Origin: Runella sp. SP2
Lineage (GTDB): Bacteria; Bacteroidota; Bacteroidia; Cytophagales; Spirosomataceae
Direction of reading: 5' to 3'
DNA length: 64,000 nt
Assembly: GCF_003711225.1 (NCBI RefSeq)
Contig: NZ_CP031030.1
Location: 2,418,001 to 2,482,000, forward strand
A model generated the notes under the pieces. That model was not told where the DNA came from, did not search any database, and was given only the letters and a program-made list of their open reading frames with translations. The position numbers and the translations under genes were made by a program. Below, one piece after another: positions 32,306 to 59,617 of the stretch (position 1 is its first letter; each line of letters begins with the position of its first letter).

Positions 32306-33571
32306 TCACCAACTAGCCAACCATTCAGTCACAAAATTGGGACTTTCCTGTACTCGTTCCACCATCCAAGCAAATGCTAAAATCATCATCATCACTGCTC
32401 CTACAGTACGTATAGGGCCGTAAAAGGAGGTTTTTGCCAATAAAAACAACAGGGGAAATGCCACAGCGATGAGCGCCAATTGCATTAGCTCAATACCCAC
32501 ATTAAACCCTAAAATACTCAGTACCATTTGGGTAGTCGATAACTCAAGATTGGTGAGGGTTTCGGCAAAGGCAAGGCCATGAACCAATCCAAACAATCCC
32601 GCAATGAGTACTTCTCGTTTGGGGTAAATGGGTTTCAACGCATGAAATGCCGCCACCAAAATCGTGATAGTGATAAGCACTTCAATGGGCTTCGCAGGAA
32701 AATGCAACCATTGAAGCGCCCCAATGAGTAAAGTCAGTGAATGCCCAACGGTAAACGCCGTGATAATTTTCAGAAGATTCAACAAACTGGCTTTCAGCGC
32801 TAAACGTTTACGCCAACGTCCATCTGAAGCAACCAGCATCGCTGGAAAAAGAAGCGTAAGAACAAACAATAGATGATCAGTACCTTCGGCGATATGGTCG
32901 ATGCCCAAATGCACCATGTTGATAAATCCTTTCCAGCGGCTTCCTTGTTGTAAACTCACCAAAAACGGATTCAATTTATTATTTACAGCATCCCATTCAA
33001 TGACCCCAATCTGTTGGGTCAGGGTATCTTCTCGCACCAATCCCTGCGCCCAGTCTTGCTTGACATGAATCAAGGCTTTGTGGCTTGCCACTTGGTGCAA
33101 GATGACATCATAATCAAAGAAAAAATTGCGCAAGTCGTAGCCAGACGGAGGGGTCATTTCAAACTCAACGGCCAACTCTTTGTACGTACCTACGATGGGG
33201 TTGTTACTCTCTAATAGCTGCATCTCCCCCACCGTAACTTTCCACACTACCCCTTCAAAACTCTTAGGACGTATGTGTTTCATCAGATACTCACGAAGCG
33301 CCCCGCCTAGCCGCTCAACCAATCGCTCAGAATGGTCGTTGACACTCATTCCAACCGCAGATTGAAGCTCACTTAAAGGCAACAAAACCTCACCCGAAAT
33401 ATGCTTTTCGTGGATGTTTAACACTACCATTGAATTGGGCATGGGGTGGGCAGAGAGAGAGCCCCCTGGCCCCCATTGGGGGAACAAAAATACCAATACC
33501 AATATCATTCGTATTCCGTTCCCCAATGAGGAGGAGAAAACGAGGGGAGTGAAGGGCCTAGTTTCCACCAT
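32306..33571 (-). CDS. HupE/UreJ-family membrane protein
   Basis: A 421-residue protein from the ATG at 33571, which overlaps the DUF3500 stop by 14 bp; an internal ATG at 33508 is an alternative. A signal peptide ends at SLSA before HPMPNS. Residues 45-230 form a soluble extracytoplasmic region, and the last 200 residues carry about six membrane helices with the HupE/UreJ signature: HLGIDHIAEGTDHLLFVLTL, AFTVGHSLTLL, FHALKPIY and FGLVHGLAFAETL. Characterised relatives are nickel or cobalt permeases serving hydrogenase or urease. Here the signal peptide contains the G/C-block palindrome (PQWGPGG, encoded at 33461-33484). No urease or hydrogenase gene is in the window. Confidence 0.85.
   Translation of the reverse strand: MVETRPFTPLVFSSSLGNGIRMILVLVFLFPQWGPGGSLSAHPMPNSMVVLNIHEKHISGEVLLPLSELQSAVGMSVNDHSERLVERLGGALREYLMKHIRPKSFEGVVWKVTVGEMQLLESNNPIVGTYKELAVEFEMTPPSGYDLRNFFFDYDVILHQVASHKALIHVKQDWAQGLVREDTLTQQIGVIEWDAVNNKLNPFLVSLQQGSRWKGFINMVHLGIDHIAEGTDHLLFVLTLLFPAMLVASDGRWRKRLALKASLLNLLKIITAFTVGHSLTLLIGALQWLHFPAKPIEVLITITILVAAFHALKPIYPKREVLIAGLFGLVHGLAFAETLTNLELSTTQMVLSILGFNVGIELMQLALIAVAFPLLFLLAKTSFYGPIRTVGAVMMMILAFAWMVERVQESPNFVTEWLASW
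33461..33484. repeat. G/C-block palindrome, copy in the hupE-like signal peptide
   Basis: GCCCCCTGGCCCCCATTGGG plus GGAA. It is translated as PQWGPGG in the h/c-region of the signal peptide. Confidence 0.75.
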
Positions 33572-34958
33572 AATCTGATTTTCTATCTCTCCAGACTGAG
33601 TGAGGGTGAACACCATTTCTGATAATAATTCCGCCTTGCATCGACCATTCAATCCATACACTTGGGCCATCAATCAACAAATAATCACCTTGGGCTGCCA
33701 TGGTTGTACCTCCGTAATAAGAAACGTAGGTTTCGTCTAGCTCGGATTTGTATTTGGCCAATACTGCTGCGGCTGCTTTGTCATCCAAATCATCGACATA
33801 AGTTTTAATCGCGGCCAACAATAAATCTTTCTGAGCCGTCGTCAAGTTTCCAGCTTTTACTCCCGTTTTAGTGGCTGGGAAACTGCCGTCTTTTTGAGGA
33901 CCAACAATCAAATCATTTTGCGCCGCCGAACGCTTTGCCGTAGCTAGTTCGGCGGTACTTAGGCTTTTCATAAAATTAGCCAATGCCGCTGTTTCTTGCA
34001 CCAAAGGTTGTACCGTTTTTCCTGTGTTCGTCGATGTCCAAGTTGGATACGGCTCTGTTGAGCGGAACGACGGTGTGCCACCTGTCATTTTACCCCCATT
34101 GTAGGTATGAATAATAGTTCCGTGGTGACCACCAATTTGCAAACACCACAAACCCGTTGTACTTGGCGTTCCTAGAATCCCAATGTAGTAATTACCTGAG
34201 CCATAGCCGCTGTCACCGCCGTTTGCTCTCAGATAGTCATCCGCATCAATAATCCCTGCATATTCTTCACTTCCTTCGTTAGCTCCTGTTCCCGTAGCTA
34301 CTTTCACTAAGTTATAGAAAGCCGTCCATTGCGCGGTAGAGAACGTACTTGAAGCTAATCCTACACGTCCTTTGTACAATGATTGGGGCAAATTGCTCCA
34401 GAGTTTGGCTTGGGCAACGGTATAAGTATATTGTGCTGAGGTCAACTGAGAGGATGTTAATGTAGTTTTAAACGCCTCGGCAGCTGCCACAATAGCCGCA
34501 ATGTCGGTATCCATTGCCCAAGCCGTGCCTGTGCCCGACGACGAACCTGCGGCTGAGACCGAAAGCGACAACGTGCACGATTGACCACCCAATGAAATAG
34601 CAAATGAAGCTGTTCCACTAGCTGAGGGAGTACCTGTGATGGCATAGGTCACTGAACCTGCTCCCGACGCCAAAGTTCCTGATGCTAACGTGGCGGTCAA
34701 GCCTGTAACCCCCGTGGAGGCAATCCCCGAACCCGCCGAATAAGCCACACCATTGCCTCCCGTGTAGGGCACGGTGGCTGTTCCCGTGAAAGCGGCACTT
34801 GCTTGAGGTATGCCTGAGAAAGTAACTGAAACGCAGCTAAGAGCAGTTACCGTCGCTGTTGAAGTTGTTGGAGTAGGATCGTCTGTTGACTTACTACAAG
34901 CAATCAACAAAACAAAAGTGCTTACACAAACACTGGCGAGAAAATGATTCATTTTCAT
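33558..34958 (-). CDS. DUF3500 lipoprotein with N-terminal beta domain
   Basis: A 466-residue protein. The ATG at 34958 is preferred; an upstream in-frame TTG falls in a hairpin. The lipoprotein signal ends in the lipobox LIAC (about residue 22). Residues 30-145 are a threonine/serine/glycine-rich beta domain of the Bacteroidota surface type (TVTALSCVSVTFSGIPQ). Residues 150-460 match DUF3500: LWSNLPQSLYKGRVGLASS, the active-site-like LQIGGHHGTIIHTYNGG, AALANFMKSLS, and a C-terminal GPSVWIEWSMQGG then HPHSVWRD. Function unknown. It is first in a cluster with HupE- and TonB-receptor genes, and its upstream region shares an element with the neighbouring LytTR system. Confidence 0.82.
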   Translation of the reverse strand: MKMNHFLASVCVSTFVLLIACSKSTDDPTPTTSTATVTALSCVSVTFSGIPQASAAFTGTATVPYTGGNGVAYSAGSGIASTGVTGLTATLASGTLASGAGSVTYAITGTPSASGTASFAISLGGQSCTLSLSVSAAGSSSGTGTAWAMDTDIAAIVAAAEAFKTTLTSSQLTSAQYTYTVAQAKLWSNLPQSLYKGRVGLASSTFSTAQWTAFYNLVKVATGTGANEGSEEYAGIIDADDYLRANGGDSGYGSGNYYIGILGTPSTTGLWCLQIGGHHGTIIHTYNGGKMTGGTPSFRSTEPYPTWTSTNTGKTVQPLVQETAALANFMKSLSTAELATAKRSAAQNDLIVGPQKDGSFPATKTGVKAGNLTTAQKDLLLAAIKTYVDDLDDKAAAAVLAKYKSELDETYVSYYGGTTMAAQGDYLLIDGPSVWIEWSMQGGIIIRNGVHPHSVWRDRKSDYGGN

Positions 34959-34959
34959 A

Positions 34960-34991
34960 CTAATCAATTGAATTTGGTTTCAATTGATTAG
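34960..34991 (-). promoter_or_regulatory. Leader hairpin before the DUF3500 start codon
   Basis: Perfect 13-bp arms CTAATCAATTGAA / TTCAATTGATTAG with a 6-nt loop end directly beside the ATG. In mRNA the hairpin would sit across the ribosome-binding region. Confidence 0.55.
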
Positions 34992-35036
34992 ACGCACCTT
35001 TTTAATTCGGTGTTGAGTTAAAGGAAGTATTTGAAA

Positions 35037-35064
35037 GTGAAAAGGAAAAAACGACAAGTGAATC
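35037..35064 (-). promoter_or_regulatory. Shared upstream element, copy before the DUF3500 gene
   Basis: On the minus strand the element starts GATTCACT and ends TTTTTTCCTTTTCAC, 79 bp before the DUF3500 start. A near-identical element (25 of 28 positions) lies at 36870-36897 before the histidine kinase gene. Both are followed after 7 nt by a TAC-starting -7-like octamer. Confidence 0.6.
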
Positions 35065-35070
35065 GTCGAT

Positions 35071-35826
35071 TTAGGTCGTTTCAAGCCACTTTTTGAAAGG
35101 CGTTACTTTTTCTTTGCTAATAATGATAGGAAACCCTGCTACGGGTTGCACTTTTACGTTGACACGACTGTTGAAATGCGATTCTATTTCTACGACACTT
35201 TCCCGCGAAAGAATATATTGCCGATTGGCACGGATAAATTCGGCGGGGTCGAGTTGGCCTTCTAAGTCTTCCAATTTAAAATCAATCACTAGCTTTCGAC
35301 CATCGCATAACTGCCCATACACCAAGCCATTGTCTATAAAAAAGTAGGCAAATTCTTCGGTTTTGATGGGAAGTAATTTATCTCTAAATTTTACTAAAAA
35401 GCTTTTGCGATACGCTTTAGGCATAAAAACCTGCTGCTGAATCAATTCATTCAAACGTTCTTGTTGCATCAGCTGCTGGTTTTGAAATTTCTCAATCGAA
35501 AAACGCAACGAATCTTCATCGATGGGTTTCAACAAATAATCAACGCTGTTGTGTTTAAATGCCCGAATGGCGTATTCGTCAAAAGCCGTTGTAAAAATGA
35601 TGGGAGTTTTGAGATGCACTTGTTCGTAGATGTCGAATGAAATTCCATCGGCTAGTTGAATATCCGAAAAAATCAAGTCGGGACTGGGATGAGACGTAAA
35701 CCATTTTATACCTTCTTCTACGCTTTCAATGACCGTTTCGACGGGGTCTTCCACGCCTATTTCTCGCAACAAAAATTTCAATTGACTTGCCGCCGCTGGC
35801 TCATCTTCCACAATGACTATCTTCAT
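35071..35826 (-). CDS. LytTR-family response regulator
   Basis: A 251-residue cytoplasmic regulator from the ATG at 35826, the start that overlaps the kinase stop (ATGA). Residues 1-120 are a receiver domain: acidic pocket VIVEDEPAA, phospho-acceptor Asp in LIFSDIQLADG (about residue 55), Thr in IIFTTAFDEYA and Lys in LLKPID. Residues 140-250 are a LytTR DNA-binding domain (FLVKFRDKLLPIKTEEFAYF, FIRANRQYILS, FPIIISKEKVTPFKKWL). It acts with the kinase encoded just upstream. The shared element at 35037 and 36870 is its best candidate binding site, which would make it control both itself and the DUF3500 cluster. Confidence 0.93.
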   Translation of the reverse strand: MKIVIVEDEPAAASQLKFLLREIGVEDPVETVIESVEEGIKWFTSHPSPDLIFSDIQLADGISFDIYEQVHLKTPIIFTTAFDEYAIRAFKHNSVDYLLKPIDEDSLRFSIEKFQNQQLMQQERLNELIQQQVFMPKAYRKSFLVKFRDKLLPIKTEEFAYFFIDNGLVYGQLCDGRKLVIDFKLEDLEGQLDPAEFIRANRQYILSRESVVEIESHFNSRVNVKVQPVAGFPIIISKEKVTPFKKWLETT

Positions 35827-36797: not shown

Positions 36798-36869
36798 TCT
36801 GAAATATCAAGCTTTACGCTAATAACTGAAATCCGTTATTTCTTATTCAAACCACGAAGGTAAATATAC

Positions 36870-36897
36870 GTGAAAAGGAAAAAATGGCCAGTGAATC
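36870..36897 (-). promoter_or_regulatory. Shared upstream element, copy before the histidine kinase gene
   Basis: Minus-strand copy of the element at 35037-35064, with the same start (GATTCACT) and end (TTTTTTCCTTTTCAC). TACCTTCG follows after 7 nt as a likely -7 element. Confidence 0.6.
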
Positions 36898-36949: not shown

Positions 36950-36976
36950 TAAAATCGTTTGCTTTTTTGTATCGGG

Positions 36977-37032
36977 CGGGTTGTGAGCAACCCTTTACAC
37001 ACTTTGGGCGAGTTGTGAGCAACCCTTGGCAC
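36977..37032. repeat. Two GGGTTG-TGAG-CAACCC hairpin repeats, 3' side of the GH3 gene
   Basis: Copies at 36977-37000 and 37009-37032 (the second with GAGTTG), 32 bp apart. Each is a small hairpin followed by a TTxxCAC tail. Three further copies lie on the other side of the GH3 gene. Confidence 0.8.
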
Positions 37033-37038
37033 GAAGGG

Positions 37039-39336: not shown

Positions 39337-39487
39337 TGGTGTTTGGTCAATTTGAATGTATCATTTCGATACAATGATAATTTATATTCTCCAAAAAGCA
39401 CAATTTTGTAATTGGTAAATCCATGATTTGGGTGGAAGAATCGGCAGATGGGGCAATTGGCTCGACTAACCTCTTTCACGTAAAAAT

Positions 39488-39574
39488 CGGGTTTTGAGCA
39501 ACCCTCAGCACAGAGAGTCGGGTTGTGAGCAACCCTTTGCACGGTAAAATCGGGTTTTGAGAAACCCTCAGCAC
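39488..39574. repeat. Three GGGTTG-TGAG-CAACCC hairpin repeats, 5' side of the GH3 gene
   Basis: Copies at 39488-39511, 39519-39542 and 39551-39574, with a period of 31-32 bp. Core GGGTTxTGAGCAACCC; the tails alternate CAGCAC and TTTGCAC. In the 469-bp gap 39337-39805 I see only these repeats, the inverted-repeat element at 39625-39796 and about 150 bp of A/T-rich leader. Confidence 0.82.
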
Positions 39575-39624
39575 AGTCAGCACGGTCACCACAATCTAAA
39601 AAATAGATAAATGTATAACTGTAC

Positions 39625-42239: not shown

Positions 42240-43379
42240 CTACTCCACGAAGCCAGCCTTCGCTTTTTGCCCTGATTTCACCCAAGCTCTTAACTCGTCA
42301 AATGCTTGTCCCGTTTGCTTGTCGGTAAAATTGCAATGGCCTTGCCCATTGGTATATTTTACGGTAAAATAAGCCTGTTTACCTTGTTTCTGAAGTAAGT
42401 TTTCGTAGCTCACAATGGCCAAATCGGCAGGAATCAACTGGTCGTACATCGTATGCAAAGCCAACGCAGGTTTGTTTATATTGCCCGTACGGTCGTATTT
42501 ATCAAACAAAGTATTCTGACTTACGGTAGCGGCTAATCGTTCGGCTTTTTGATTGACTTCTAACGCATTAGGAAAACGGCCATAGACGGTATTGGTATTG
42601 TCGTACGGATTTCCGCCTGCTTTTTGGGCAATGTCTCGCAGTACGCCCTCACCAAACGCCAAGGCAAAAGCAAGGTCATCGGGCTTCATGTCAAAATGTT
42701 TGGCAAATTCCACTGCAAGTAATGAATCTTTGGCGAAAATGGCTTTTTTCATGGTAGCTGCTTTCCGAAATGCCGCAAACATGGGCATGGGTTCTTTTGG
42801 TTTTGACACGTCAAAAATCTCGTGCAATGAGGTCGCAATGCCAGGAAAAAGTCCATTGAAAGTAGCAAACATGTCAAATTCTTTGCGGGTTTGGAGGTAT
42901 ATTCTTCCCGCCAACGGGCACATGGGGAGTCCCCCTTGGTAGTTTTGGCCAAAATTTTCGAGGGTAGCCAACGTAATTCCGCCTCCCATCGAATGGCCTG
43001 CCATAAAGGTAGAATCGGGCTGACCGTAAGTTTTGACAAAATATTGACGCAAAGCCTCCGTATCGTCCACTCCTTGCACCAAGGCCAACCCCTGAATTTT
43101 GTAATCAGAAGCGGCTACGGCATAGCCACGTTCCAAAAATGGAGTCATTCGCTTGAGCCAAGCAGGGTCTTGACTTTGGCGCGGCTTTGAACCCATAAAT
43201 TCGTAGCCGTGGGCGTACATGACGAGTTTTCCTTTCCAATTTTCAGGAAGAAGAATGCGATACCGCGCCCCGTCGATGGCACCTGAGTCGATTTTAGAAA
43301 TGTTTTGCGCCCCCAAACCCCCACCCCCAATGGGGGCTTGCAGTGCAAAAAGTGCAATGGCAAAAAATAACTTTTTCAT
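42240..43379 (-). CDS. Secreted alpha/beta hydrolase (esterase-like)
   Basis: A 379-residue protein from the ATG at 43379, chosen for the signal peptide MKKLFFAIALFALQAP... ending near GAQ. The fold is alpha/beta hydrolase: oxyanion region LVMYAHGYEFMG, nucleophile Ser in FMAGHSMGGG (about residue 135), acid probably in HTMYDQLIP and His in NGQGHCNF. A periplasmic esterase within an aromatic-acid operon could free hydroxycinnamates from sugar esters; this is inference. The signal peptide contains a run APIGGGGLGA encoded by a G/C-block palindrome at 43309-43337. It is 22 bp after the amidohydrolase gene. Confidence 0.82.
   Translation of the reverse strand: MKKLFFAIALFALQAPIGGGGLGAQNISKIDSGAIDGARYRILLPENWKGKLVMYAHGYEFMGSKPRQSQDPAWLKRMTPFLERGYAVAASDYKIQGLALVQGVDDTEALRQYFVKTYGQPDSTFMAGHSMGGGITLATLENFGQNYQGGLPMCPLAGRIYLQTRKEFDMFATFNGLFPGIATSLHEIFDVSKPKEPMPMFAAFRKAATMKKAIFAKDSLLAVEFAKHFDMKPDDLAFALAFGEGVLRDIAQKAGGNPYDNTNTVYGRFPNALEVNQKAERLAATVSQNTLFDKYDRTGNINKPALALHTMYDQLIPADLAIVSYENLLQKQGKQAYFTVKYTNGQGHCNFTDKQTGQAFDELRAWVKSGQKAKAGFVE
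43309..43337. repeat. G/C-block palindrome, copy in the esterase signal peptide
   Basis: A C-rich block (GCCCCCAAACCCCCACCCCC) followed by AATGGGGGC. It is translated on the minus strand as APIGGGGLGA. Confidence 0.75.
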
Positions 43380-43401
43380 TTGGTAAGTAGTTTTTGGGGA
43401 A

Positions 43402-44265
43402 TTATAACCCCAACATTTTAATCGCATTTTCTTTCAAAATCAACGGCTTTACTTCTTCTTTAAAACCCGCATCTGCAAAGTCTTTCATCCAACGTTCGGG
43501 CGTAATCAACGGAAAATCTGTTCCGAATAACATTCTGTCTTTCAACAAGGTGTTGGCGTATTGAATAAGTTGTTTGGGGAAATATTTGGGTGACCAACCG
43601 CTCAAGTCGATATACACATTGGGCTTGTGCATGGCTACCGACAATGCCTCGTCTTGCCAAGGCCAACTCGGGTGCGCAATGATGATAGGACAATCGGGGA
43701 AGTCGATGGCCACATCGTCGAGGTGCATGGGGTTAGAATACTCCAATCGCAAACCGCCCCCACCTCTTACCCCACTTCCAAACCCCGAATGGCCGCTGTG
43801 AAAAAGCATGGGGAGTTTGTATTCGGCAATTACTTCGTACAAATGATACGCCATTTTGTCTTGCGGATAAAAGCCTTGCACCGTTGGGTGAAATTTGAAG
43901 CCCTTAACCCCGTAATTTTCAATTAAAACGCGGGCTTCGCGAGCCCCCATGCGTCCTTTATGCGGGTCGATGCTCGCAAAGGCAATCATCACGTCATCGT
44001 TTTTGAGCGCCGCTTCTGCTACCTCAACATTGGGAATCCGACGTTTTCCTACATTGTGTTCGGAATCAACCGTAAACATCACAAACGCTAGATTATTATC
44101 CCGATAAAAATCAGCCGTTTCCTGAATGGTGGGACGTTTATCGGACTTAAAGTACTTGGCAAACGCTTCGTCCAATTCTGGTCGATAATCGTCGTGCGGC
44201 TGACAACACGACACTTCCGCGTGCGTGTGTACGTCGATGGCTATTACTTTTTCGATGTCTATCAT
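43402..44265 (-). CDS. Amidohydrolase_2-family metal-dependent hydrolase or decarboxylase
   Basis: A 287-residue cytoplasmic TIM-barrel enzyme. The metal-site motifs are AIDVHTHAEV (about residue 11), KGFKFHPTVQGF, LPMLFHSGHSG (about 153), IIAHPSWPW (about 195) and LFGTDFPLITPERW (Asp about 250). This is the Amidohydrolase_2 group that contains aromatic decarboxylases (ACMSD, gamma-resorcylate and 5-carboxyvanillate decarboxylases) and lactone hydrolases. In the CoA-ligase operon it could remove a carboxyl group or open a lactone in an aromatic pathway. The reaction cannot be fixed from sequence. A repeat pair fills the gap to the MetE-like gene upstream. Confidence 0.85.
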   Translation of the reverse strand: MIDIEKVIAIDVHTHAEVSCCQPHDDYRPELDEAFAKYFKSDKRPTIQETADFYRDNNLAFVMFTVDSEHNVGKRRIPNVEVAEAALKNDDVMIAFASIDPHKGRMGAREARVLIENYGVKGFKFHPTVQGFYPQDKMAYHLYEVIAEYKLPMLFHSGHSGFGSGVRGGGGLRLEYSNPMHLDDVAIDFPDCPIIIAHPSWPWQDEALSVAMHKPNVYIDLSGWSPKYFPKQLIQYANTLLKDRMLFGTDFPLITPERWMKDFADAGFKEEVKPLILKENAIKMLGL

Positions 44266-44287
44266 ATTGCCTCGCAGCGGCGAACCG

Positions 44288-44353
44288 CCCTTTCCCCCAA
44301 TGGGGGTATAAAGTTGAATTTATTTAGAATTCCCCCATCGGGGGTTAGGGGGC
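44288..44353. repeat. G/C-block palindrome pair between the MetE-like and amidohydrolase genes
   Basis: Two blocks: CCTTTCCCCCAATGGGGGT at 44288-44306 and TCCCCCATCGGGGGTTAGGG at 44331-44350 running on to GGC. They fill almost the whole 88-bp junction. Confidence 0.8.
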
Positions 44354-45460
44354 TTACGCCGTACCCCACACTTTGATGGCAGTGTTTACGACCAGTTCCA
44401 TTTTACGCCATTGGTCGTCGTGGGTCATGTCGTTGCCGTGGTGGGTCGATGAAAAACCACATTGCGGACTCACGCACATTTGTTCAAGTGGCATGTATTG
44501 CGCTGCCTCGTCAATACGTTTGGCTAGGTCATCAATGCTTTCCAAGGCTTTAACTTTGGAAGAAATGATACCGAGTACCACCATTTTATCTTTTGGTACA
44601 AATCGCAACGGGGCAAAATCGCCCGAACGCTCGTCGTCGTACTCCAAGAAATAGGCATCCACGTTGATACTATTGAATAAAATATCGGCCACGGGCTCAT
44701 AGCCTCCTTCAGCAAACCACGTACTGCGATAATTTCCACGACAAAGGTGAATCCCAACGGTAAGGTCTTTGGGGCGTCCATCAATCACCGAATTAATCAA
44801 AGAGGCATACGTACGTGGTAGTTCGTTCGGGTCTTCGCCACGTTCGACGGCCGCCGCTCGCATTTTAGGGTCGCAGAGGTAGGCCAAATTGGTATCGTCC
44901 AACTGCAAATACCGCAAACCTGCCTTGTACAAATGGTCTATTTCTTCGCGATAGGCTGCCGATAAATCATGAAAAAATTCGTCCATATCTGGATACGAAT
45001 TGATGTCTATCGATTTGCGTCCACCGCGAAAATGCACCATCGTTGGTGAAGGGATGGATACTTTTGGCGTCTGACTTACGACCGATTTCAAGTAATTAAA
45101 ATCTGCAACTTGAATGTCTTTTACGTGCTTTAACTTGCCCGTTACACTCAATTTTGGCGGGGTAAAGCCATCTTCAGCAGCTTTGGCGTTTGGATTGGCT
45201 TCAATTCCACCCGTCACGGTGACACCGTCCAGTTCTTTCAGAAAATCTAGGTGAAAATAATCACGACGAAACTCGCCGTCGGTGATGGCTTTCATCCCCG
45301 TAGCTTCCAATTTTTTTACGGTTTCAGCAATTCCAGCATCTTCAATAGCCCGAAGTTCTTCAGCCGAGATTTCGCCTTTTTTCCACTTTAAGCGGTTTTC
45401 TTTTACTGCTGGCGTACGCAACAAACTACCGACGTGGTCGGCTCTAAAAGGAGGGTTCAT
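44354..45460 (-). CDS. MetE-like cobalamin-independent methyltransferase (short form)
   Basis: A 368-residue protein from the ATG at 45460 (MNPPFRADHVGSLLR, the normal start of the short MetE C-terminal-domain family). An in-frame upstream ATG at 45517 would run through a repeat. The barrel motifs are AITDGEFRRDYFHLDF, TMVHFRGGR, the zinc-site His in VGIHLCRGNYRS, the FLEYDDERSGDF strand and CVSPQCGFSSTHHG (zinc Cys). Full MetE has two such domains; single-domain forms often act on other methyl donors or acceptors. Within an aromatic-acid operon it could move a methyl group, for example from a methoxy substrate, but this is speculation. Length is normal for the short form. Confidence 0.8.
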   Translation of the reverse strand: MNPPFRADHVGSLLRTPAVKENRLKWKKGEISAEELRAIEDAGIAETVKKLEATGMKAITDGEFRRDYFHLDFLKELDGVTVTGGIEANPNAKAAEDGFTPPKLSVTGKLKHVKDIQVADFNYLKSVVSQTPKVSIPSPTMVHFRGGRKSIDINSYPDMDEFFHDLSAAYREEIDHLYKAGLRYLQLDDTNLAYLCDPKMRAAAVERGEDPNELPRTYASLINSVIDGRPKDLTVGIHLCRGNYRSTWFAEGGYEPVADILFNSINVDAYFLEYDDERSGDFAPLRFVPKDKMVVLGIISSKVKALESIDDLAKRIDEAAQYMPLEQMCVSPQCGFSSTHHGNDMTHDDQWRKMELVVNTAIKVWGTA

Positions 45461-45470
45461 AGGAGTACAG

Positions 45471-45533
45471 TCCCCCCACCCCCAGTGGGGGAGTTTTTTG
45501 TTAAAAATAGCCCCCATTGGGGGGAGGGGGGCT
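45471..45533. repeat. G/C-block palindrome pair between the SDR and MetE-like genes
   Basis: Blocks at 45471-45492 (TCCCCCCACCCCCAGTGGGG...) and 45510-45533 (GCCCCCATTGGGGGGAGGGG...) fill the junction of 75 bp. Confidence 0.8.
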
Positions 45534-45535: not shown

Positions 45536-46303
45536 TTATTTCGCAGCCATGCGGATGGCGCCATCAAGACGAATGACTTCTCCGTTAAGCATTTGATTTT
45601 CAATAATATGTTTTACTAAAGCAGCGTATTCGCGCGGCTGTCCCAACCGCGACGGGAACGGTACTTGTTGCCCTAAAGAGGCTTTTACATCGTCGGGCAT
45701 TCCCATCAAAAGCGGCGTTTCAAAAATTCCTGGCGCGATGGTCATCACCCGAATGCCCATTTTGGCAAATTCCCTTGCAATCGGTAAGGTCATCCCAACA
45801 ATACCACCTTTGGAGGCCGAATAAGCTGCCTGACCGATTTGCCCGTCGAAAGCAGCGACAGAAGCCGTGTTGATAATGACCCCACGTTCGCCGCTTTCGC
45901 CAGGTTCGTTTTGCTGCATCGCTGCCGCTGCCAATCGAATGACATTAAATGTCCCGATTAAGTTGATTTGAATAACTTTTGAAAATAAATCAAGTGTATG
46001 TGGTCCGTTTTTTCCTACGACCCGCTGGGCTGGACCAATCCCCGCGCAGTTCGCTACACCATTAATAGTTCCGAACGTTGTGATAGCCAATTCAATGGCC
46101 GCTTGTACGTGTTCTTCGTTGCTGACGTCCGTTTTCACAAAGCGAACACTCGCACCTAGTTGAGCTTCTGCTTTTTGCCCTGCTTCTTCGTTTACATCGA
46201 GTAATACGGCATTTCCACCATTTTCGACAATCATTTTGGCCGTTGCCAGTCCAAGCCCCGAAGCGCCACCTGTTACGAGAAAAGTTTTTTGTTGTATGTT
46301 CAT
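45536..46303 (-). CDS. SDR-family 3-hydroxyacyl-CoA dehydrogenase-like
   Basis: A 255-residue cytoplasmic dehydrogenase of the classical short-chain family. The cofactor motif is [13 protein letters not shown] (about residues 10-22), with an Asp in VLLDVNEEA that favours NAD. The NAG region is [13 protein letters not shown]; the active site is [11 protein letters not shown] then the YxxxK pair in AAYSASKGG (about 161-169). The sequence is closest in look to the 3-hydroxyacyl-CoA dehydrogenase type 2 branch (HSD17B10-like). In this operon it would oxidise a beta-hydroxyacyl-CoA produced by the crotonase. Start and stop lie in repeat-filled junctions. Confidence 0.9.
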
Positions 46304-46306: not shown

Positions 46307-46351
46307 TCCCTGCCCCAGTGGGGGAATTTAAAGTTAAAAGCCCCTAAAGGC
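46307..46351. repeat. Degenerate G/C-block palindrome at the ligase/SDR junction
   Basis: TCCCTGCCCCAGTGGGGGAA (46307-46326) and a shorter GCCCCTAAAGGCC (46339-46351). The second block contains the TAG stop codon and last codons of the CoA ligase gene. Confidence 0.65.
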
Positions 46352-48194
46352 CGTACAATTTTTCCACCAAGTTAGCTCTATATTTCAAAACTGCACGCTG
46401 ATTCAGCGAGCCTTTATCCGTAATTTCTCCCAAATCAATGGAAGGGGGTTCTAATGCAACGATGTATTTTACTACTCGACTAGCACTGCCAGTCGCCTGA
46501 TTTTCAAGCCATACCAACATTTCATCCAAATAATTTGTCACTTTTGGATGTGTAAATACCTCTTCGTGGCTTGTTTCTAATTCTAAACCTGCATGAACTC
46601 GGCAAGCTTCGACGTTTAAGAACAAAATTGCCCCTACGTATTCTCTGTCCAAACCAGTCAACACTACATCCTGAACAATGGGGGAGCCAGCTGTCAATAC
46701 TTTTGCTTTTAAAACGCCCACATTCACCCACGTCCCCGTCGAGAGTTTGAAATCTTCTGCAATACGACCATCAAATACAAGTCCTTTGTCGGGGTCATTT
46801 TCATCCACAAATTTGACGGCATCGCCCGTTTTATAAAACCCTTCTTCGTCAAATGCTTTTGCCGTCACTTCGGGTTCTCGCCAATACCCTGGTGTCACGT
46901 TGGGAGCTTTGTAGCGAGCCTCTAGTTTATCGCCGTCGGGGACTAGTTTCACCTTCATTCCCGCCACAGGCACGCCCAACAAGCCCGAAAAGCTTCCTCC
47001 CCAGCTGGCAAACATCGCCGAAGGCCCCGATTCGGTACAGCCCAAACCCGTAATGATGGGTACTTTTTCCCCCGTAGTTTCTGTAGCCAACTCCTCCCAA
47101 CGGTTCCAAACTGGCTGCGCCAACGAAGCCCCTGCATAAAACAGGATTTGCAACTTCTTAAAAAAAGTTTCGCGAAGCTGAGGTTCACGGTCGAAGTAAG
47201 GAATCAGCATTTCAAACCCCTTAGGCACGTTGAAATAAGCCGTTGGAGAAATTTCACGGAGGTTTTGAACCGTCGTTTCGATGCCTTGGCGGGTTGGCTT
47301 TCCTTCGTCGATATACAGTGTCCCTCCATTATAAAGAGCCAATCCAAAATTATGATTTCCGCCGAAGGTATGATTCCACGGCAACCAATCGATAAACACG
47401 GGTGGCTCGGTTTTCATAAAAGGGAAAACCTGCGTTATCTGCTGCAAGTTAGCACACCACATTCGTTGGGTGTTAATCACCCCTTTGGGCAAGCCCGTTG
47501 AGCCCGACGTAAAGAGAACTTTAGCAACGGTGTCGGCATTGACTTTCTCAAACGCCTGCTGTACCTGCACAGTTGGTTCAAAGGAAAGTATCTGTGCAAA
47601 ATCAACTCCTTCACTCCCATCGACAGTTACAAAAGTAGCATCAGGAAAAAGAGCCTTTGCCAACTCCAAGGCTTTGGCGTACATTCGTCCATTTTGAGCA
47701 AAAATCAACCCTGGGGTCATTAATTCGAGCGTATGGCGGAGTTTTCCAAAATCATCCGACACCAACGAATAAGGGGGAGAAATTGGCGAATAAGGGATTC
47801 CCACGTGTACGGCGGCCAATGCTAAGAGTGCATGTTCAAGACTATTCTCGGACAAAATCACCAAGGTTTTTTCTTCCGACAGTTCTAAATTCAGTAGATA
47901 CTGCGCAATTCGCTCTACTTTTTGGAGGGTTTCGGCATACGTTAACTTTACCCATTCGCCGTTTTCATTTCGCCTTGCAATGAAGACAGCTTCTGGTTTT
48001 TGTATTGCCCAAAAGCGCAATTTCTCCGTTAGTTTTTCAGGATATTCTTCCAAAGGAGCCAAAAGTTCAAACTCCATAATACCGTCTGAGCGACGCTTTT
48101 TTTGAGTTTGGGTAGGGCCAAAATGAACGTTTTTGAAAAGCCCCGCGCGGCGTACCGTCCCAGCCCCCAACGGGGGAGTTATTTTAAAATTCAT
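46344..48194 (-). CDS. Feruloyl-CoA synthase-like acyl-CoA ligase
   Basis: A 616-residue cytoplasmic AMP-forming ligase from the ATG at 48194; an upstream TTG three codons earlier is less likely. The adenylation signature is KVLFTSGSTGLPKGVINTQ (about residues 220-238), followed by FIDWLPWNHTFGGNHNFGL, YFNVPKGFEML and ITGLGCTESGPSAMFA; the hinge is in VFDGRIAEDFKLSTGTWV. The WLPWNHTFGGNHNFG and GRIAEDFKL..GTWV stretches are characteristic of feruloyl-CoA synthases, so a hydroxycinnamate or similar aryl acid is the likely substrate. About 15 N-terminal residues (TPPLGAGTVRRAG) come from a palindromic repeat, before the family-conserved NVHFGP. Confidence 0.88.
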   Translation of the reverse strand: MNFKITPPLGAGTVRRAGLFKNVHFGPTQTQKKRRSDGIMEFELLAPLEEYPEKLTEKLRFWAIQKPEAVFIARRNENGEWVKLTYAETLQKVERIAQYLLNLELSEEKTLVILSENSLEHALLALAAVHVGIPYSPISPPYSLVSDDFGKLRHTLELMTPGLIFAQNGRMYAKALELAKALFPDATFVTVDGSEGVDFAQILSFEPTVQVQQAFEKVNADTVAKVLFTSGSTGLPKGVINTQRMWCANLQQITQVFPFMKTEPPVFIDWLPWNHTFGGNHNFGLALYNGGTLYIDEGKPTRQGIETTVQNLREISPTAYFNVPKGFEMLIPYFDREPQLRETFFKKLQILFYAGASLAQPVWNRWEELATETTGEKVPIITGLGCTESGPSAMFASWGGSFSGLLGVPVAGMKVKLVPDGDKLEARYKAPNVTPGYWREPEVTAKAFDEEGFYKTGDAVKFVDENDPDKGLVFDGRIAEDFKLSTGTWVNVGVLKAKVLTAGSPIVQDVVLTGLDREYVGAILFLNVEACRVHAGLELETSHEEVFTHPKVTNYLDEMLVWLENQATGSASRVVKYIVALEPPSIDLGEITDKGSLNQRAVLKYRANLVEKLYGL

Positions 48195-48248
48195 ATTTTT
48201 CAAAATTAAAATTTAAAAATACCCCATTGGGACGGTACGCCGCGCGGG
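48142..48248. repeat. 21-bp perfect inverted repeat with G/C-block core spanning a start codon
   Basis: The arms at 48142-48162 (CCCGCGCGGCGTACCGTCCC plus A) and 48228-48248 are exact complements. The 65-bp loop holds CAGCCCCCAACGGGGGAG and the ATG (48194) of the CoA ligase gene. The right arm ends exactly at the stop codon of the upstream crotonase gene. Confidence 0.9.
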
Positions 48249-49034
48249 TTAGGGGGCAACTTTTTTAGCTCGTCCTTCCAAAAAATCACGCAATCTTTCT
48301 TTGGCTTCGGGGGCACTTTGGGCAATGGCGGCCATCAATGATTCCATCAACAGCCCCTGTTCTTGCGAAGCATCTACAATTCTTGGCAGCACCTGTACCA
48401 ATGCAAAATTGGTCATTCCAGCGTTGGAGGCTACTTTTTGCGCCAGTTCAAGGGCTTTTTCTTGGCTTTTTCCTGTTTCTACTAAATATTGCGCAAGTCC
48501 AATTCGTTCCCCTTCTTCCGCAGAATACACGCGCCCTGTAAGCATCATGTCGGTCATACGTGCCAATCCAATGAGCTTGGGTACGCGCACCGAAGCCCCA
48601 CCACCGACAAATATCCCTCGCTGTCCCTCAGGCAAGGCATACATGGTTGTAACATCCGCAACTCTAATATGACAGGCACTCGCAAGTTCCAAACCTCCGC
48701 CTACGACCGCCCCGTGCAAGGCCGCAATCACAGGCACTCGCCCAAACTGCACCTTGTCGAGTACCCGATGCCACATGCGGGAATGGTACACCCCTTCGGA
48801 GGCATTTCGTTCCTTGAGTTCGGATAAATCAAGTCCTGCGGAGAAATGTTTCCCTTCGCCATAAATAACCATGCACCGAACGGACGCGGGAATGGCATCC
48901 ATTACTTTTTCTAAGTCTAGAAGCAGCGCATCGTTGAAAGCATTTCGTTTTTCGGGTCGGTTGAGTCCTACCAAGAGCGTGCTTTCTACGGCGCTTATTT
49001 TTAGAAGGTCTGAGGGAAAATGGAAGTCAACCAT
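48249..49034 (-). CDS. Enoyl-CoA hydratase/isomerase (crotonase) family protein
   Basis: A 261-residue cytoplasmic enzyme. The crotonase signature is visible as RPEKRNAFNDALL, the first oxyanion loop EGKHFSAGLDLSELK (about residues 60-74), the second in LHGAVVGGGLELASACHIR (about 107-125) and the catalytic Glu region ALPEGQRGIFVGGGASVRV. In the operon it lies upstream of the CoA ligase and SDR, so it could hydrate feruloyl-CoA-type enoyl thioesters, or act as hydratase/lyase giving an aryl aldehyde and acetyl-CoA. It is the first gene of the minus-strand operon; its TAA stop lies in a CCCCCTAACCC block that abuts the palindrome. Confidence 0.9.
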   Translation of the reverse strand: MVDFHFPSDLLKISAVESTLLVGLNRPEKRNAFNDALLLDLEKVMDAIPASVRCMVIYGEGKHFSAGLDLSELKERNASEGVYHSRMWHRVLDKVQFGRVPVIAALHGAVVGGGLELASACHIRVADVTTMYALPEGQRGIFVGGGASVRVPKLIGLARMTDMMLTGRVYSAEEGERIGLAQYLVETGKSQEKALELAQKVASNAGMTNFALVQVLPRIVDASQEQGLLMESLMAAIAQSAPEAKERLRDFLEGRAKKVAP

Positions 49035-49143
49035 TATTCAACTATGAATTGATTTATTTCAACACAAAATTGAACAATAAAAAGAAGTTAAAATAGGAAA
49101 AATGTGGGCATTAGTACGCAATATCAATCATTTTTTAATTTTA

Positions 49144-49212
49144 CAACCATATAAGACATATAAGGGATTATTAGAAAACAACTTATATGCTCTTATATGT
49201 CTTATATGGTTG
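49144..49212. repeat. Perfect 21-bp inverted repeat between the sugar dehydrogenase and crotonase genes
   Basis: Arms CAACCATATAAGACATATAA(G) at 49144-49164 and the exact complement at 49192-49212, with a 27-nt loop. It lacks a T-tract on one side but could end the minus-strand sugar dehydrogenase transcript or act as a cruciform repeat. Confidence 0.8.
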
Positions 49213-49229
49213 CACAAAAAGGCAAGAAA

Positions 49230-52212: not shown

Positions 52213-52214
52213 AT

Positions 52215-55351: not shown

Positions 55352-55420
55352 TTTAAAAGTTGATAGTTTGGTTGAAAAATTGAAGAAAGAGAGGGAACTC
55401 CCTAGAGAAACGTATAGTTT

Positions 55421-55449
55421 TTGGGTTTGGGATAAATTGAATAGTTTTG
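55421..55449 (+). promoter_or_regulatory. Promoter of the mntA-hepT pair
   Basis: TTG (55421-55423), 18 nt, then TAGTTTTG (55442-55449), an exact TAnnTTTG, ending 26 bp before the ATG at 55476. It decides the short start of the MntA-like protein. Confidence 0.65.
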
Positions 55450-55475
55450 TATTAAATAAAAAAATTAAACCGGGT

Positions 55476-56088: not shown

Positions 56089-56091
56089 TAT

Positions 56092-57414
56092 TCACCGCTT
56101 CAGCGGCTGGACCTTCCAATACGTCAGACTCCGCCACAGCCATTCGAGTGGGCCAAAAAGAAAGTATTTTAGCCAAATTGGACTGATAATCAACTGAAAA
56201 GCCCAAATAGCAAGTACCACGATGTAAATTTGATAAAACGCCAATTCAGCGTAGTAATTCAGGCCGTATCCAAAAAAGAAAAGTGTACAAATCACCGAAT
56301 GCGAAATGTAATTGGTAAATGCCATACGCCCTACCGCCACCAAACGGCTCATCAAGCCTTGTATCACACCCGATTTGTAGAGCAAAATTAGCGCTGCGGC
56401 ATGAGCCATCACCAGCAAAATCCGCTGAAAAGGGTAAATCAAATTAACCCAGTTGATGGGTACTTCTTCCATACGAGCAAGATTGGCTTCAAGCGTAGAG
56501 AAATGATGAAACGCATAATAATTGCTATAAATCACCAAGGGTAACCCAAACCCGTAGCCAATTTTGGCAACTGTCCAATATTCTTTGTTTGACCACGCTC
56601 CCGTCAGAAAACCCCATTTGAAAAGTGCTAAACCCAACAGCATTAATGCCAGCGAATCCCAAATTTCAAAAGGCAAGTACTTGGTCTGAATATCCAGCGC
56701 AATGGGCCGCAAATAACCCGCAACGGTACTGTAATCTGACTTCATCTTTTTGGTGTTGGCTTTCGCATCTTCGCGATTAGGAATCATCGTTTTCTCAATC
56801 TCACGCCATTCGGTCAGCGCTTTTGTTTGAGTAGCGGTCAGGGTTTTGTTCTCACTTTTGGCTTTGGTGGCTTCGGAGTAGGCGATGCGTTTTTCACGAA
56901 TGTCTTGGTACTGAATGGTACCCGCCACAAAACTAGCCACTGCCACAATGGGCACTGCCCACACCAAGTATCGGGGTGGCACGTTGCGAAACAAATACAA
57001 AATCATTCCACAAACGGCGTAGAGGTACAAAATCTCGCCAATCCATAATATGAGGTGTGAATGAATTAGGCCAAAAATCAACAACCAAAACATGCGACGG
57101 TAATACAGCCAATGCACTGACGTACCTTTACCGCTTTTGTTAGCAACAAAAAGCAAGACACCCGCTCCAAAAACCATCCCAAACATGGCGCGCATCTTGC
57201 CTTCAAAGAACACTCCAATGAATTGATAAAGCCAGAAATTGAAACTATCAGGGTCATTTTTGAATGCCTCAAAAGAATAATCCGCCATCGAAAAGCCTGG
57301 AATATTCATCATTAAAATACCCAACAACGCAAAGCCTCGTAACATATCAATGAGGGAAATACGGCTGGTTTCTGGCACAGGTGCAGCAACGCTAGAAGGC
57401 GTGAGTCTTTCCAT
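56092..57414 (-). CDS. DUF418 integral membrane protein
   Basis: A 440-residue inner-membrane protein with about nine hydrophobic segments. It opens with a DUF418-type signature in which the first helix begins RISLIDMLRGFALLGILMMN (about residues 19-38), followed by FEGKMRAMFGMVFGAGVLLF. The C-terminal DUF418 domain has VGRMAFTNYISHSVICTLFFFGYGL (in part) and ends QLIISPIWLKYFLFGPLEWLWRS. The family (YeiB in E. coli) has no established function; related acyltransferase-like folds suggest envelope modification. The region at residues 185-230 is a charged cytoplasmic loop (KAKSENKTLTATQTKALTEW). Transcribed alone on the minus strand. Confidence 0.85.
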   Translation of the reverse strand: MERLTPSSVAAPVPETSRISLIDMLRGFALLGILMMNIPGFSMADYSFEAFKNDPDSFNFWLYQFIGVFFEGKMRAMFGMVFGAGVLLFVANKSGKGTSVHWLYYRRMFWLLIFGLIHSHLILWIGEILYLYAVCGMILYLFRNVPPRYLVWAVPIVAVASFVAGTIQYQDIREKRIAYSEATKAKSENKTLTATQTKALTEWREIEKTMIPNREDAKANTKKMKSDYSTVAGYLRPIALDIQTKYLPFEIWDSLALMLLGLALFKWGFLTGAWSNKEYWTVAKIGYGFGLPLVIYSNYYAFHHFSTLEANLARMEEVPINWVNLIYPFQRILLVMAHAAALILLYKSGVIQGLMSRLVAVGRMAFTNYISHSVICTLFFFGYGLNYYAELAFYQIYIVVLAIWAFQLIISPIWLKYFLFGPLEWLWRSLTYWKVQPLKR

Positions 57415-57565
57415 GGTTTATGAACGTTTGATGAGAAATAGAGTTTAGGTTATGAAAAAGTACGTAATTTTTTGCTCATCAAAAAATTAAAAAAAATCCC
57501 TTGCAAGAGACAAGCTCCTACAAGGGAAATAAATCGGGGTTACGTGAAGGCGTTTGGCTTGTCGG

Positions 57566-58048
57566 TTATTCGTATAATTCAAACATTGCTTCAATTTCTA
57601 CGGGAATGTTGTCGGGTAACGTGCCCATTCCAACCGCGCTCCTTACACCAATGCCGTGTTCGGTACCCCACACTTGGGCAAATAACTCACTGCATCCATT
57701 GATGACGTACGGATGGCGCAAAAAATCGGACGTACAGTTTACCATTCCCAATACTTTCATTACCCGTTTCACACGGTTCAATGAACCCACGTGCGTTTTT
57801 ATGGTCGAAAGCATCGTCAAGCCCACTTGACGGGCAGCTAATTTGGCTTGTTCCATGTCTAACTCCTCACCTACCCGCCCGATTATCAAGCTTTTATCGT
57901 CTTGTACTGGCCCGTGCCCCGAGAGAAACAAGTACTTTCCATCAATCAAATAAGGTTTATATACGCCCAGCGGTGCGGGTGCTGGTGGTAACGATAATTC
58001 GAGGGCTGCAAATGCCTCTTCGGGGCTCAATGTTTCAATCACTGTCAT
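57566..58048 (-). CDS. RidA/YjgF-family protein
   Basis: A 160-residue protein of the RidA (YER057c/UK114) family, whose members form trimers and hydrolyse reactive enamine/imine intermediates in the cytoplasm. The conserved C-terminal region is GVRSAVGMGTLPDNIPVEIEAMFE (in part), containing the family arginine (in GVRSAVG). Other marks are YLFLSGHGPV (about residues 39-48) and KAHxG-type KTHVGSLNRVKRVMKV. It is longer than the canonical form (about 130) by an N-terminal extension. It lies 21 bp after the SusD gene in the same direction, so it may process a nitrogenous substrate imported by the SusC/SusD pair; that is inference. Confidence 0.85.
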   Translation of the reverse strand: MTVIETLSPEEAFAALELSLPPAPAPLGVYKPYLIDGKYLFLSGHGPVQDDKSLIIGRVGEELDMEQAKLAARQVGLTMLSTIKTHVGSLNRVKRVMKVLGMVNCTSDFLRHPYVINGCSELFAQVWGTEHGIGVRSAVGMGTLPDNIPVEIEAMFELYE

Positions 58049-58069
58049 GTTGTTGATTACTTTTTTGAA

Positions 58070-59617
58070 TTATTGCTTATCCCACCAAACGCGCGTCAAC
58101 AAATCGTCCGCTCCTTGGCGTTGAACGGCCTCATTGTACGAAGTTCGGTTGAGGGTTTGTTCTAAAACTGGGTACAAGAAACGGCGGAATATTTTACCAC
58201 CTGTGGCGTTTCCTGGATACACGTTGGGTACCAACGCAGGGTAGCCCGTACGGCGGTAGTTGTTATAAACCTCTTGAGCGTCAGGAAATATACCCGCCCA
58301 AAATTGATAATAAATTTGTTCAGTTTGCTCAGTCACCGTTCCCGATGTTTTAAAGGCATGAGCCGTGATATAGCTATCAATTCTTGCCTTATCAATGACA
58401 TTGGTGACACCACTAATCAAATCCCACTGCTGCATGGCGGCCCGAATACCCGTTTCGTACAAGGCAGAAGCCGTTTCGGTTTTATACCAACCTTTGATGG
58501 CTGCCTCCGCCAACAAGAAGTTGGACTCTGCTACAGTAAACAGCAACAAAGGCGCATCTACTTTCAAGACGGTCGTTTGCTTCGGCTCCGAGTAGGTTAC
58601 GAAATCAGAAGGCTTAGTACCGTTGATGGTAGCAGGTAGTCCTTTTTGAATGCTCTCATCTGAACTTGCAGCTCCATTGACATATACCACCGACAACACC
58701 CCTAAACGCGGGTCTTTATTGGTTTTCAAGGAGTTAATAAACACATCTTGGTATTTTCCGCCTTCGGTATTGTTTGTTCCATCGGCACGGAGGTAGTTGT
58801 CGTTCAGCAATTGCCACGCAATGGGATTTTTGTTGATATTTTGCCCCGAAGCCAAATAACTCACCTTGGCGATGTCAGCATAATCACGAATGACACCACC
58901 CGCGATGGCCTTTGTCACCCAGCTTTGCGAGGCCGCCGCGTCAACTTTCGACAAACGCATTCCCAAACGTAACATAAGCGAATACGCAAATTTTTTCCAC
59001 TTCGTCACATTCCCTTGGTATATCAAATCTGACGTGCCAAAAGTAGTGGTATTTGAAGCATCAAACGAAGTAGCTGCGGCTTCCAATTCCTTGAGCATGT
59101 CGGCATAAATCGCGCTTTGGGAATCGTATTTTGGCTGAAAAATCGACAAGTTATAGCCTTGTCCTGCCTCCGAGTAAGGAATATCGCCGTACAAATCGGT
59201 CAAGCGGCTAAAGCAGAAAACCCGCCACACCCGAGCCGCAGCATACTGGTTTACTTTGGTGGGGTCATCTTTTACGGCCTTGATGACCTCCCCAATTTGG
59301 TTGATTTGAGTAGGGTAAGAATTACTAAAAACACCACCCGTGGCATTTACTTGCGAAGCGGTGTATTTTGAACCGAAGCCCTCTACGTCGTTGTAACTGG
59401 TGGTGTATTGCATCAGTCCAAACAATAGGCTGCCTTTGTTTCCGCTGTTGGCAGCTCCGTCGTAGATAGCTTTGCTAAAAATGTAAGGGGTCGTCGGTAC
59501 CGAAACCGCATTGGGGTTGGTATTGATTTCGACAAAATCTTTATCGCAGGAGGTCAAGCACAAGCCCCCTAGCCCCCAAAGGGGGAGTAAAAACATATTT
59601 TTAAGTGATTTTTTCAT
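58070..59617 (-). CDS. SusD/RagB-family outer membrane lipoprotein
   Basis: A 515-residue surface lipoprotein. The signal peptide ends in lipobox LTSC, with Cys at about residue 24. Family features are the helical TPR-like scaffold (YAAARVWRVFCFSRLTDLYGDIPYSEA), KYDSQSAIYADMLKELEAA, FLLAEAAIKGW and YYQFWAGIFPDAQEVYNNYRRTGYP. It is of the SusD-like_2 branch rather than the starch-type SusD. It works with the upstream SusC-like porin as a lid that captures a glycan, peptide or other nutrient. The signal peptide contains LPLWGLGG, encoded by a G/C-block palindrome at 59563-59588. No glycosidase is next to it. Confidence 0.93.
   Translation of the reverse strand: MKKSLKNMFLLPLWGLGGLCLTSCDKDFVEINTNPNAVSVPTTPYIFSKAIYDGAANSGNKGSLLFGLMQYTTSYNDVEGFGSKYTASQVNATGGVFSNSYPTQINQIGEVIKAVKDDPTKVNQYAAARVWRVFCFSRLTDLYGDIPYSEAGQGYNLSIFQPKYDSQSAIYADMLKELEAAATSFDASNTTTFGTSDLIYQGNVTKWKKFAYSLMLRLGMRLSKVDAAASQSWVTKAIAGGVIRDYADIAKVSYLASGQNINKNPIAWQLLNDNYLRADGTNNTEGGKYQDVFINSLKTNKDPRLGVLSVVYVNGAASSDESIQKGLPATINGTKPSDFVTYSEPKQTTVLKVDAPLLLFTVAESNFLLAEAAIKGWYKTETASALYETGIRAAMQQWDLISGVTNVIDKARIDSYITAHAFKTSGTVTEQTEQIYYQFWAGIFPDAQEVYNNYRRTGYPALVPNVYPGNATGGKIFRRFLYPVLEQTLNRTSYNEAVQRQGADDLLTRVWWDKQ
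59563..59588. repeat. G/C-block palindrome, copy in the SusD signal peptide
   Basis: GCCCCCTAGCCCCCAAAGGG plus GGAGT, translated on the minus strand as LPLWGLGGL just before the lipobox. Confidence 0.78.

Follow-up and report, generated by a model that had tools for sequence, protein, structure and literature searches.

Palindromic G/C blocks of Runella sp. SP2 as probable nuclease-less copies of a gene-invading element with a DUF559 nuclease

A stretch of 64,000 nucleotides from Runella sp. SP2 (contig NZ_CP031030.1, positions 2,418,001 to 2,482,000; the window hereafter) contains a family of palindromic G/C blocks of the form CCCCC-N3-GGGGG, several of them in one aromatic operon, which raises the question of what these blocks are and what moves them. 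A preliminary description had read them as elements placed at translation starts and had suggested a search for a cognate transposase of repetitive extragenic palindromic (REP) sequences. Reports of palindromes in protein genes go back to work on Rickettsia in 2000 (cited in PMC10969869). Earlier literature left open what moves the gene palindromes that have no REP-associated tyrosine transposase (RAYT), and the available part of PMC3733652 speculates that the mobiliser of CGTC repeats, which are found without a transposase, has vanished. The presence of DUF559 nucleases between palindromes suggests an answer. The G/C blocks are probably nuclease-less copies of a gene-invading mobile element with palindromic ends and a DUF559 nuclease as its putative mover.

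Structure and genomic placement of the blocks

The window contained eight matches to CCCCC-N2..8-GGGGG, compared with a mean of 0.33 and a maximum of 4 in 100 dinucleotide shuffles. Two further units, the copy at 46307 and a partner near 48220-48257, were degenerate. The whole 7.61 Mb genome contained 108 exact matches to CCCCC-N3-GGGGG and none to the reversed control pattern. The blocks first described were real and correctly located. The sites were clustered along the chromosome. The half-unit consensus was A-GCCCCC-TAA-CCCCC-AAT-GGGGG-AA with the tag GCCCCCTAA, built from 54 sites, out of 65 mapped, in which the tag matched at least 6 of 9 places. The mapped sites formed 46 loci, comprising 28 single units, 17 facing pairs, and one locus with three units.

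Positions relative to genes were mapped over 2.86 Mb of contig 1, which is 38% of the genome and 90% coding. Genes were called by a simple dicodon script of our own with one start corrected, so the positions near starts are uncertain. The results showed that 33 of the 46 loci were within called genes and 13 were outside. Nine of the 33 in-gene loci fell in the first 60 nt of a gene (5.6% expected, about fivefold enrichment, P 6e-5), and the final 60 nt held none. The neighbors of an intergenic locus could be typed in 12 cases, and every time they were co-directional (60% expected, P 0.002). The proposal that insertion is tolerated at gene starts was supported, and the absence of start bias, named in advance as the result contrary to it, was not what the map gave. 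However, at 23 of the 46 loci each end of the called gene was over 120 nt away, and the statement that no block lies deep inside a gene was true of the window only. The hosts of deep, in-frame copies included LeuRS, MetH, ValS, MiaB, SelD, and KdsB, and these copies are translated. With half of the loci deep in genes, a genuine start bias is only one part of the pattern, and a start-codon element was rejected as the main reading.

Both ends of the element encoded Pro/Gly-rich linkers and were open in several frames (SPLTPNGG ... PPLGAGGL), so the element can sit in-frame in loops, signal peptides, and N-termini, as well as in operon junctions. By our own count, both halves were in the frames used by the nuclease-bearing copies, SP(L/P)(T/A)PNGG and PP(L/S)G..GL, at 5 of the 11 in-gene loci with more than one unit. 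Genes would survive the insertion because in several frames the ends are translated into short, flexible peptides.

DUF559 nucleases between palindromes

The SP2 genome encoded two DUF559 (PF04480) domains, with scores of 109.9 and 109.2 bits against a curated cut-off of 20.6, neither of them in the window. Both were located in-frame within host genes, a CoA-transferase gene and MnmE, with palindromes on both sides in each case. In the CoA-transferase gene, 10 kb past the window, facing blocks at 2492975 and 2493400, 425 nt apart, enclosed the in-frame domain. In MnmE, the domain had on each side a pair from a second palindrome family, based on CCCTCTCC/GGAGAGGG. DUF559 matched the solved structure 3hrl, an “endonuclease-like protein”, with an E value of 1e-16.

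Embedding in host genes was not confined to SP2. In 59 genomes (SP2 and 58 relatives), 20 of 41 DUF559 matches, with E values up to 1.7e-23, were in open frames longer than 300 aa, compared with none of 55 strong matches of the control nuclease-like family PF02021, for which the largest frame was 178. A set of 12 stretches, containing 13 domains and selected chiefly because their open frames were long, was then read. The hosts were MetH (twice in genome G019 and once in G018), the CoA-transferase (G007, at the same site as in SP2), MnmE (G005, G007, and G009), UvrA (G001 and G004), LeuRS (G054 and G055), IleRS (G036), and a methyltransferase-like protein (G041). The identities of MnmE, MetH, UvrA, LeuRS, and IleRS were confirmed by models for the stretches scanned; for the inserts of G041, G071, G101, and G162, the hosts were named by our own reading, and these names did not serve as evidence. 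Palindromes were found on both sides of 12 of the 13 domains, with a degraded right unit in G054. Among four distant loci selected by score and long frames (L274-L277), three had clear palindromes on both sides, and in L276 the left one was degraded. In bacteria, an entire nuclease domain can be lodged inside MnmE, MetH, UvrA, or a tRNA synthetase.

A tree of 16 domains related the nucleases to their flanks. The four nucleases flanked by CCCCC-N3-GGGGG, from two hosts and three genera, fell on one side of a branch with 94/99 support, which is below the level starred by the tool, and four MnmE nucleases formed one side of another branch (99/97; the G036 MnmE nuclease was not in the tree). The two LeuRS nucleases did not group. 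A DUF559 match was present in 10 of the 11 genomes with at least 10 blocks and in 19 of the 48 with fewer (Fisher P 0.0025), an association that is only rough because the genomes are related.

Comparison of the same sites among relatives revealed several states of the insert. At the MnmE site, after NKADLTS, the nuclease was present in SP2, G005, G007, G009, and G036; a nuclease-less pair was found in G006, a decayed pair in G012, and a scar in G001, where the flanks were 99% identical to those of SP2, and in G004. G018 was read as empty. G003, G008, G010, G011, G054, and G055, with frames of 446-458 aa, were left out of this series, and G002 and G019 had no MnmE match at the search threshold used. 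At the CoA-transferase site, compared within a limit of E 1e-30, SP2 and G007 had the nuclease, G008 a short pair of blocks, and G001 and G004 another palindrome. The LeuRS site measured 60 nt in SP2 versus 18 in nine relatives, and was still shorter in G005. G007 had a related insert at the same place as SP2, and G012 looked short, though the distance measure failed there. The short pair in SP2 LeuRS preceded STMPGWAGSSWY, where G054 and G055 held the nuclease, as read from the right flank, and the MetH pair of SP2 was a few model positions from a G019 insert. In six aligned relatives the KdsB site spanned 25-67 nt and differed in all except G006 and G009, which were alike; G008 had a decayed copy, and G003 had an unrelated palindrome (GGAGTGAGAAGTCAG..., L245), which implied that the site takes different inserts in different species. 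At another LeuRS position, other open-frame inserts were seen in G012 (L247 and L250) and G008 (L246 and L249), with no G/C blocks as far as they were read.

Orthologous junctions of the operon in the window also differed in close relatives, a comparison that had been proposed at the outset. The crotonase/AMP-ligase pair was present in SP2 and the Runella metagenome-assembled genome L037, and the site was empty in R. defluvii and R. limosa. The amidohydrolase/methionine-synthase pair was absent in R. defluvii and L037, and the esterase copy was absent in R. defluvii and R. limosa and degenerate in L037. The pair between the short-chain dehydrogenase (SDR) and methionine-synthase-like genes was present in all four aligned Runella (SP2, L037, R. 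defluvii, and R. limosa) and absent in L092 and Emticicia aquatica, and the degenerate AMP-ligase/SDR copy had an identical state in R. defluvii and was longer in L037 and R. limosa. From these alignments, the pattern at LeuRS, KdsB, and the window junctions is read as insertion rather than ancestry.

The arrangement extended beyond Bacteroidota. In a plasmid collection, 22 of 26 DUF559 matches were used, leaving out H6, H8, and also H2 and H3, which agreed with H1 in genus and identity. Matched inverted palindromes were found at 12 of the 22 loci (0 of 200 shuffles). In a control set of 150 similarly sized Runella genes, one had them (0 of 100 shuffles). The 12 positive loci were from Cyanobacteriota, Deinococcota, and Alpha- and Betaproteobacteria; those that failed were two from Gammaproteobacteria, one from Sinorhizobium, one from Synechocystis, and six from Azospirillum, several Azospirillum rows being near-copies of each other. 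The Pseudanabaena repeat (GCCCCCTAAATCCCCC..GGGGGACTT) closely resembled the Runella block, and in Pseudanabaena galeata the DUF559 locus was inside a 4.9 kb gene. Other loci were located in gene clusters, between paaD and paaZ in Deinococcus psychrotolerans, among hpa genes, and between transhydrogenase genes in Sphingomonas.

The proposed element, known systems, and alternatives

A full element would consist of a half-palindrome, an open frame for a DUF559 (Vsr-like, PD-(D/E)XK) nuclease, and a facing half-palindrome. Facing pairs with short spacers and single units would be derivatives or relics without the nuclease, related to it as miniature inverted-repeat transposable elements are to a transposon. 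One such element, with most copies having lost the nuclease, is the simplest account. The nuclease would cut a site that lacks the element, which would then be installed as the break is repaired from a copy that has it; this would give homing to the same site in related genomes and, more rarely, jumps to new sites. Later loss of the nuclease would leave a pair and then a scar, and the host proteins that carry the domain would presumably work as fusions. Directly observed are the arrangement of the element, its in-frame position, its presence or absence in close relatives, the states at one site, and the single clade of the nucleases with CCCCC-N3-GGGGG ends; the role of the nuclease as mover, its cutting, and working fusion proteins are inferred.

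Several known systems share parts of this arrangement. Rickettsia palindromic elements (RPEs) are short palindromes in-frame in many unrelated protein genes, with the peptides translated (PMC10969869, available part). The Runella copies resemble them in that 33 of 46 loci are in open genes and relatives have short or different LeuRS and KdsB alleles, but RPEs, compared here by description and not by sequence, are about 150 bp long, and the available part of the same source links no encoded nuclease to them, whereas the full Runella copies carry DUF559. The GTAG/CGTC-tagged REPs (Di Nocera 2013; PMC3733652, available part) have a hairpin with an unpaired tag, facing dimers, co-directional placement, and intragenic copies in repair and tRNA-related genes. 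The Runella tag is GCCCCCTAA, not GTAG or CGTC, and DUF559 has no occurrence in the main text of that source as available. REP doublets forming hairpins (REPINs) and REPtrons with RAYT likewise combine non-autonomous facing palindrome pairs with a full enzyme-bearing version, but the enzyme here is a relative of PD-(D/E)XK nucleases rather than a Y1 HUH transposase, and the placement is largely intragenic. Homing endonuclease elements, such as inteins and group I introns, place a nuclease gene in conserved genes, where the same sites recur from species to species. The DUF559 loci share this trait, but the insert stays in frame, joined by palindrome-coded linkers, and no Hint or intein model was matched in Pfam scans of 10 host proteins or stretches.

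No DUF559 paper on mobility or palindromes was found among those judged by title and the start of the abstract, most subscription papers being outside the search. The Caulobacter VsrA paper (PMC12907096, available part) reports no mobility, and a text search with three block sequences returned only papers whose titles were unrelated. Within this literature, the link between palindromes and DUF559 had not been described before.

Several observations weigh against DUF559 as the mover. Across a wider draw of 118 genomes from the phylum, searched to E 1e-15, only 19 of 102 DUF559 matches were in frames longer than 300 aa, which implied that embedding is commoner near Runella. The embedded domain of G041, one of the 13 read, had no palindromes. 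The matching nuclease clade was present in only 4 of the 11 genomes with at least 10 blocks and missing from 7; G008 had 31 blocks and no DUF559 match, and G005 had 112 blocks and only other DUF559. The MnmE nuclease had a complete pair, not a half, on each side. No clean target duplication was seen at the insertion sites, and some target bases were replaced at LeuRS and at the AMP-ligase start. In the plasmid collection, 10 of the 22 loci had no matched palindromes at the threshold, and the controls were Runella genes, not genes of the same taxa. Neither movement nor cutting was observed.

Among the alternatives, it is unlikely that another enzyme moves the palindromes and the DUF559 genes are passengers caught between two of them. 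The palindrome-rich genomes without the matching clade and the complete pairs bordering the MnmE nuclease would fit such passengers. However, a single clade holds the nucleases that have CCCCC-N3-GGGGG ends, the same association was met again in Cyanobacteriota, Deinococcota, and Alpha- and Betaproteobacteria, and no other kind of gene was seen between pairs in the loci read, although no search was aimed at one. It is rather doubtful that the clustered copies arrived by recombination from a palindrome-rich donor and do not move in this lineage. Clustering along the chromosome agrees with donor DNA, as does the insert site and right flank shared by the LeuRS of SP2 and the more distant G007, but the crotonase/AMP-ligase insert of SP2 and L037 is missing from otherwise similar junctions of R. 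defluvii and R. limosa. Recombination would also account for spread between strains and not for origin, and is compatible with the element proposed here.

It is very improbable that the blocks are ordinary REP/REPIN repeats mobilized by a RAYT (Y1 HUH) transposase. The half-palindromes face each other at 18 of 46 loci, as in REPINs, they carry an unpaired tag, and the genome has one Y1_Tnp gene, but the repeat flanking this gene is a different one, GGTTTTGAGAAACC / GGTTGTGAGCAACC, which is also found elsewhere in the window. Half of the blocks are deep in genes, without the extragenic bias of REPs, which are described as mainly extragenic (PMC3116915, available part). RAYT was rejected as the mover for its wrong flanking repeat. 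The REP-type transposase suggested for the blocks is not supported, and the data point to a DUF559 nuclease as their partner. The GGTTGTGAGCAACC / GGTTTTGAGAAACC family, located at 36957-37034 and 39468-39576 and flanking the Y1 match at L016, is probably the cognate REP of this RAYT-like transposase. A regulatory element selected at gene starts and acting on translation or as an attenuator of operon genes is scarcely credible, since strong RNA hairpins beside start or stop codons at three junctions, the enrichment in the first 60 nt, and the one stop and one start codon supplied by the element are set against half of the loci lying deep in unrelated genes, some of them housekeeping genes, several orthologous junctions of close relatives without copies, and a signal-peptide copy, in the SusD-like gene, without an unusual fold.

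The proposal of a DUF559-bearing element has a wider form, which we hold to be about evenly balanced between right and wrong: DUF559 proteins in general may be the mobilising nucleases of palindrome-ended elements that invade coding sequence without splicing. By homing, such elements would enter loops of essential proteins across bacterial phyla, and the coding palindromes for which catalogues give no mover would be their remains. The presence of one nuclease family between palindromes in several phyla makes the question of the mover directly testable, and DUF559, a widespread family, gains a candidate role.

Copies in the window

The copies in the window and the genes around them are collected in Table 1. 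Those in the aromatic operon are read as nuclease-less pairs in co-directional junctions, and the three single units as in-frame insertions in N-terminal, signal-peptide-like stretches.

Table 1. Block copies in the window and their host or adjoining genes
Feature	Position	Strand	Remark
HupE/UreJ_2-domain host gene	32306..33508	-	copy near codons 9-16
Single half-palindrome in HupE/UreJ-like gene	33461..33484	+	translated in N-terminal hydrophobic stretch; peptide MILVLVFLFPQWGPGGSLSAHP
Host alpha/beta hydrolase (S9-like), esterase-like	42240..43379	-
Half-palindrome in signal-peptide codons of esterase-like gene	43309..43338	+	MKKLFFAIALFALQ-APIGGGGLG-AQN
Amidohydrolase gene, operon	43402..44265	-
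Facing pair, amidohydrolase / methionine-synthase-like junction	44288..44353	.	RNA fold z -4.5
Meth_synt_2-domain gene, operon	44354..45460	-
Facing pair, SDR / methionine-synthase-like junction	45470..45532	.	RNA fold z -4.6
SDR gene, operon	45536..46303	-
Degenerate copy, AMP-ligase / SDR junction	46307..46343	.
AMP-binding ligase	46344..48194	-	start codon from element spacer, MNFKITPPLGAGTVRRAGLF-KNVHFGPT
Facing pair, crotonase / AMP-ligase	48140..48257	.	RNA fold z -6.8
Enoyl-CoA hydratase (crotonase) gene, upstream of the preceding pair	48249..49034	-
SusD-like host gene	58070..59617	-
Single half-palindrome in lipoprotein-like signal peptide of SusD-like gene	59563..59587	+	MKKSLKNMFL-LPLWGLGG-LCLTSC
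Exact matches of CCCCC-N2..8-GGGGG	33470, 43324, 44294, 44332, 45479, 45511, 48164, 59573

The copies at 33461, 43309, and 59563, taken in the preliminary description as start-adjacent, were not upstream of genes but in their N-terminal codons. Blocks had also been described at all junctions between the crotonase and the esterase; this was true of four of the five, but the amidohydrolase/esterase junction (43380-43401) had none, and the esterase-associated block was inside the esterase gene.

At the amidohydrolase/methionine-synthase pair, the outer A-GCCCCC overlapped a TAA stop codon. The SDR/methionine-synthase pair stopped 9 nt ahead of the start codon. The true start of the methionine-synthase-like gene is probably at 45460 (MNPPFRADHVGS) and not at the ATG inside the palindrome at 45517. 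In the crotonase/AMP-ligase pair, the TAA of the tag was the crotonase stop codon, the spacer held the start codon of the ligase, and an additional perfect GC-rich inverted repeat of 21 nt was present (48142-48162 / 48228-48248). The SusD single (59540-59620), the only signal-peptide single that was folded, had a z of -0.6. Given the strong folds at the three junction pairs and none at this single, effects on expression at the junctions are possible but would be secondary.

GC-rich stretches of the CGGTACGCCGCGCGG and GGCGGTTCGCCG type were nested in or beside the palindromes at 44283-44300, at the 21-nt repeat just mentioned, and at L271-L273, and give the impression of another small repeat entering the palindromes. 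An inverted repeat with 36-nt arms, 83% complementary, was located upstream of the crotonase at 49139-49217. Elsewhere in the window were an array of three to four palindromic GGTCTGACTATCGTCTGACCT units (21832-22017), three direct repeats of about 122 nt at a spacing of 240 nt inside a 262-aa gene (19824-20425), and two near-identical tRNA-like copies 109 nt apart (938-1123).

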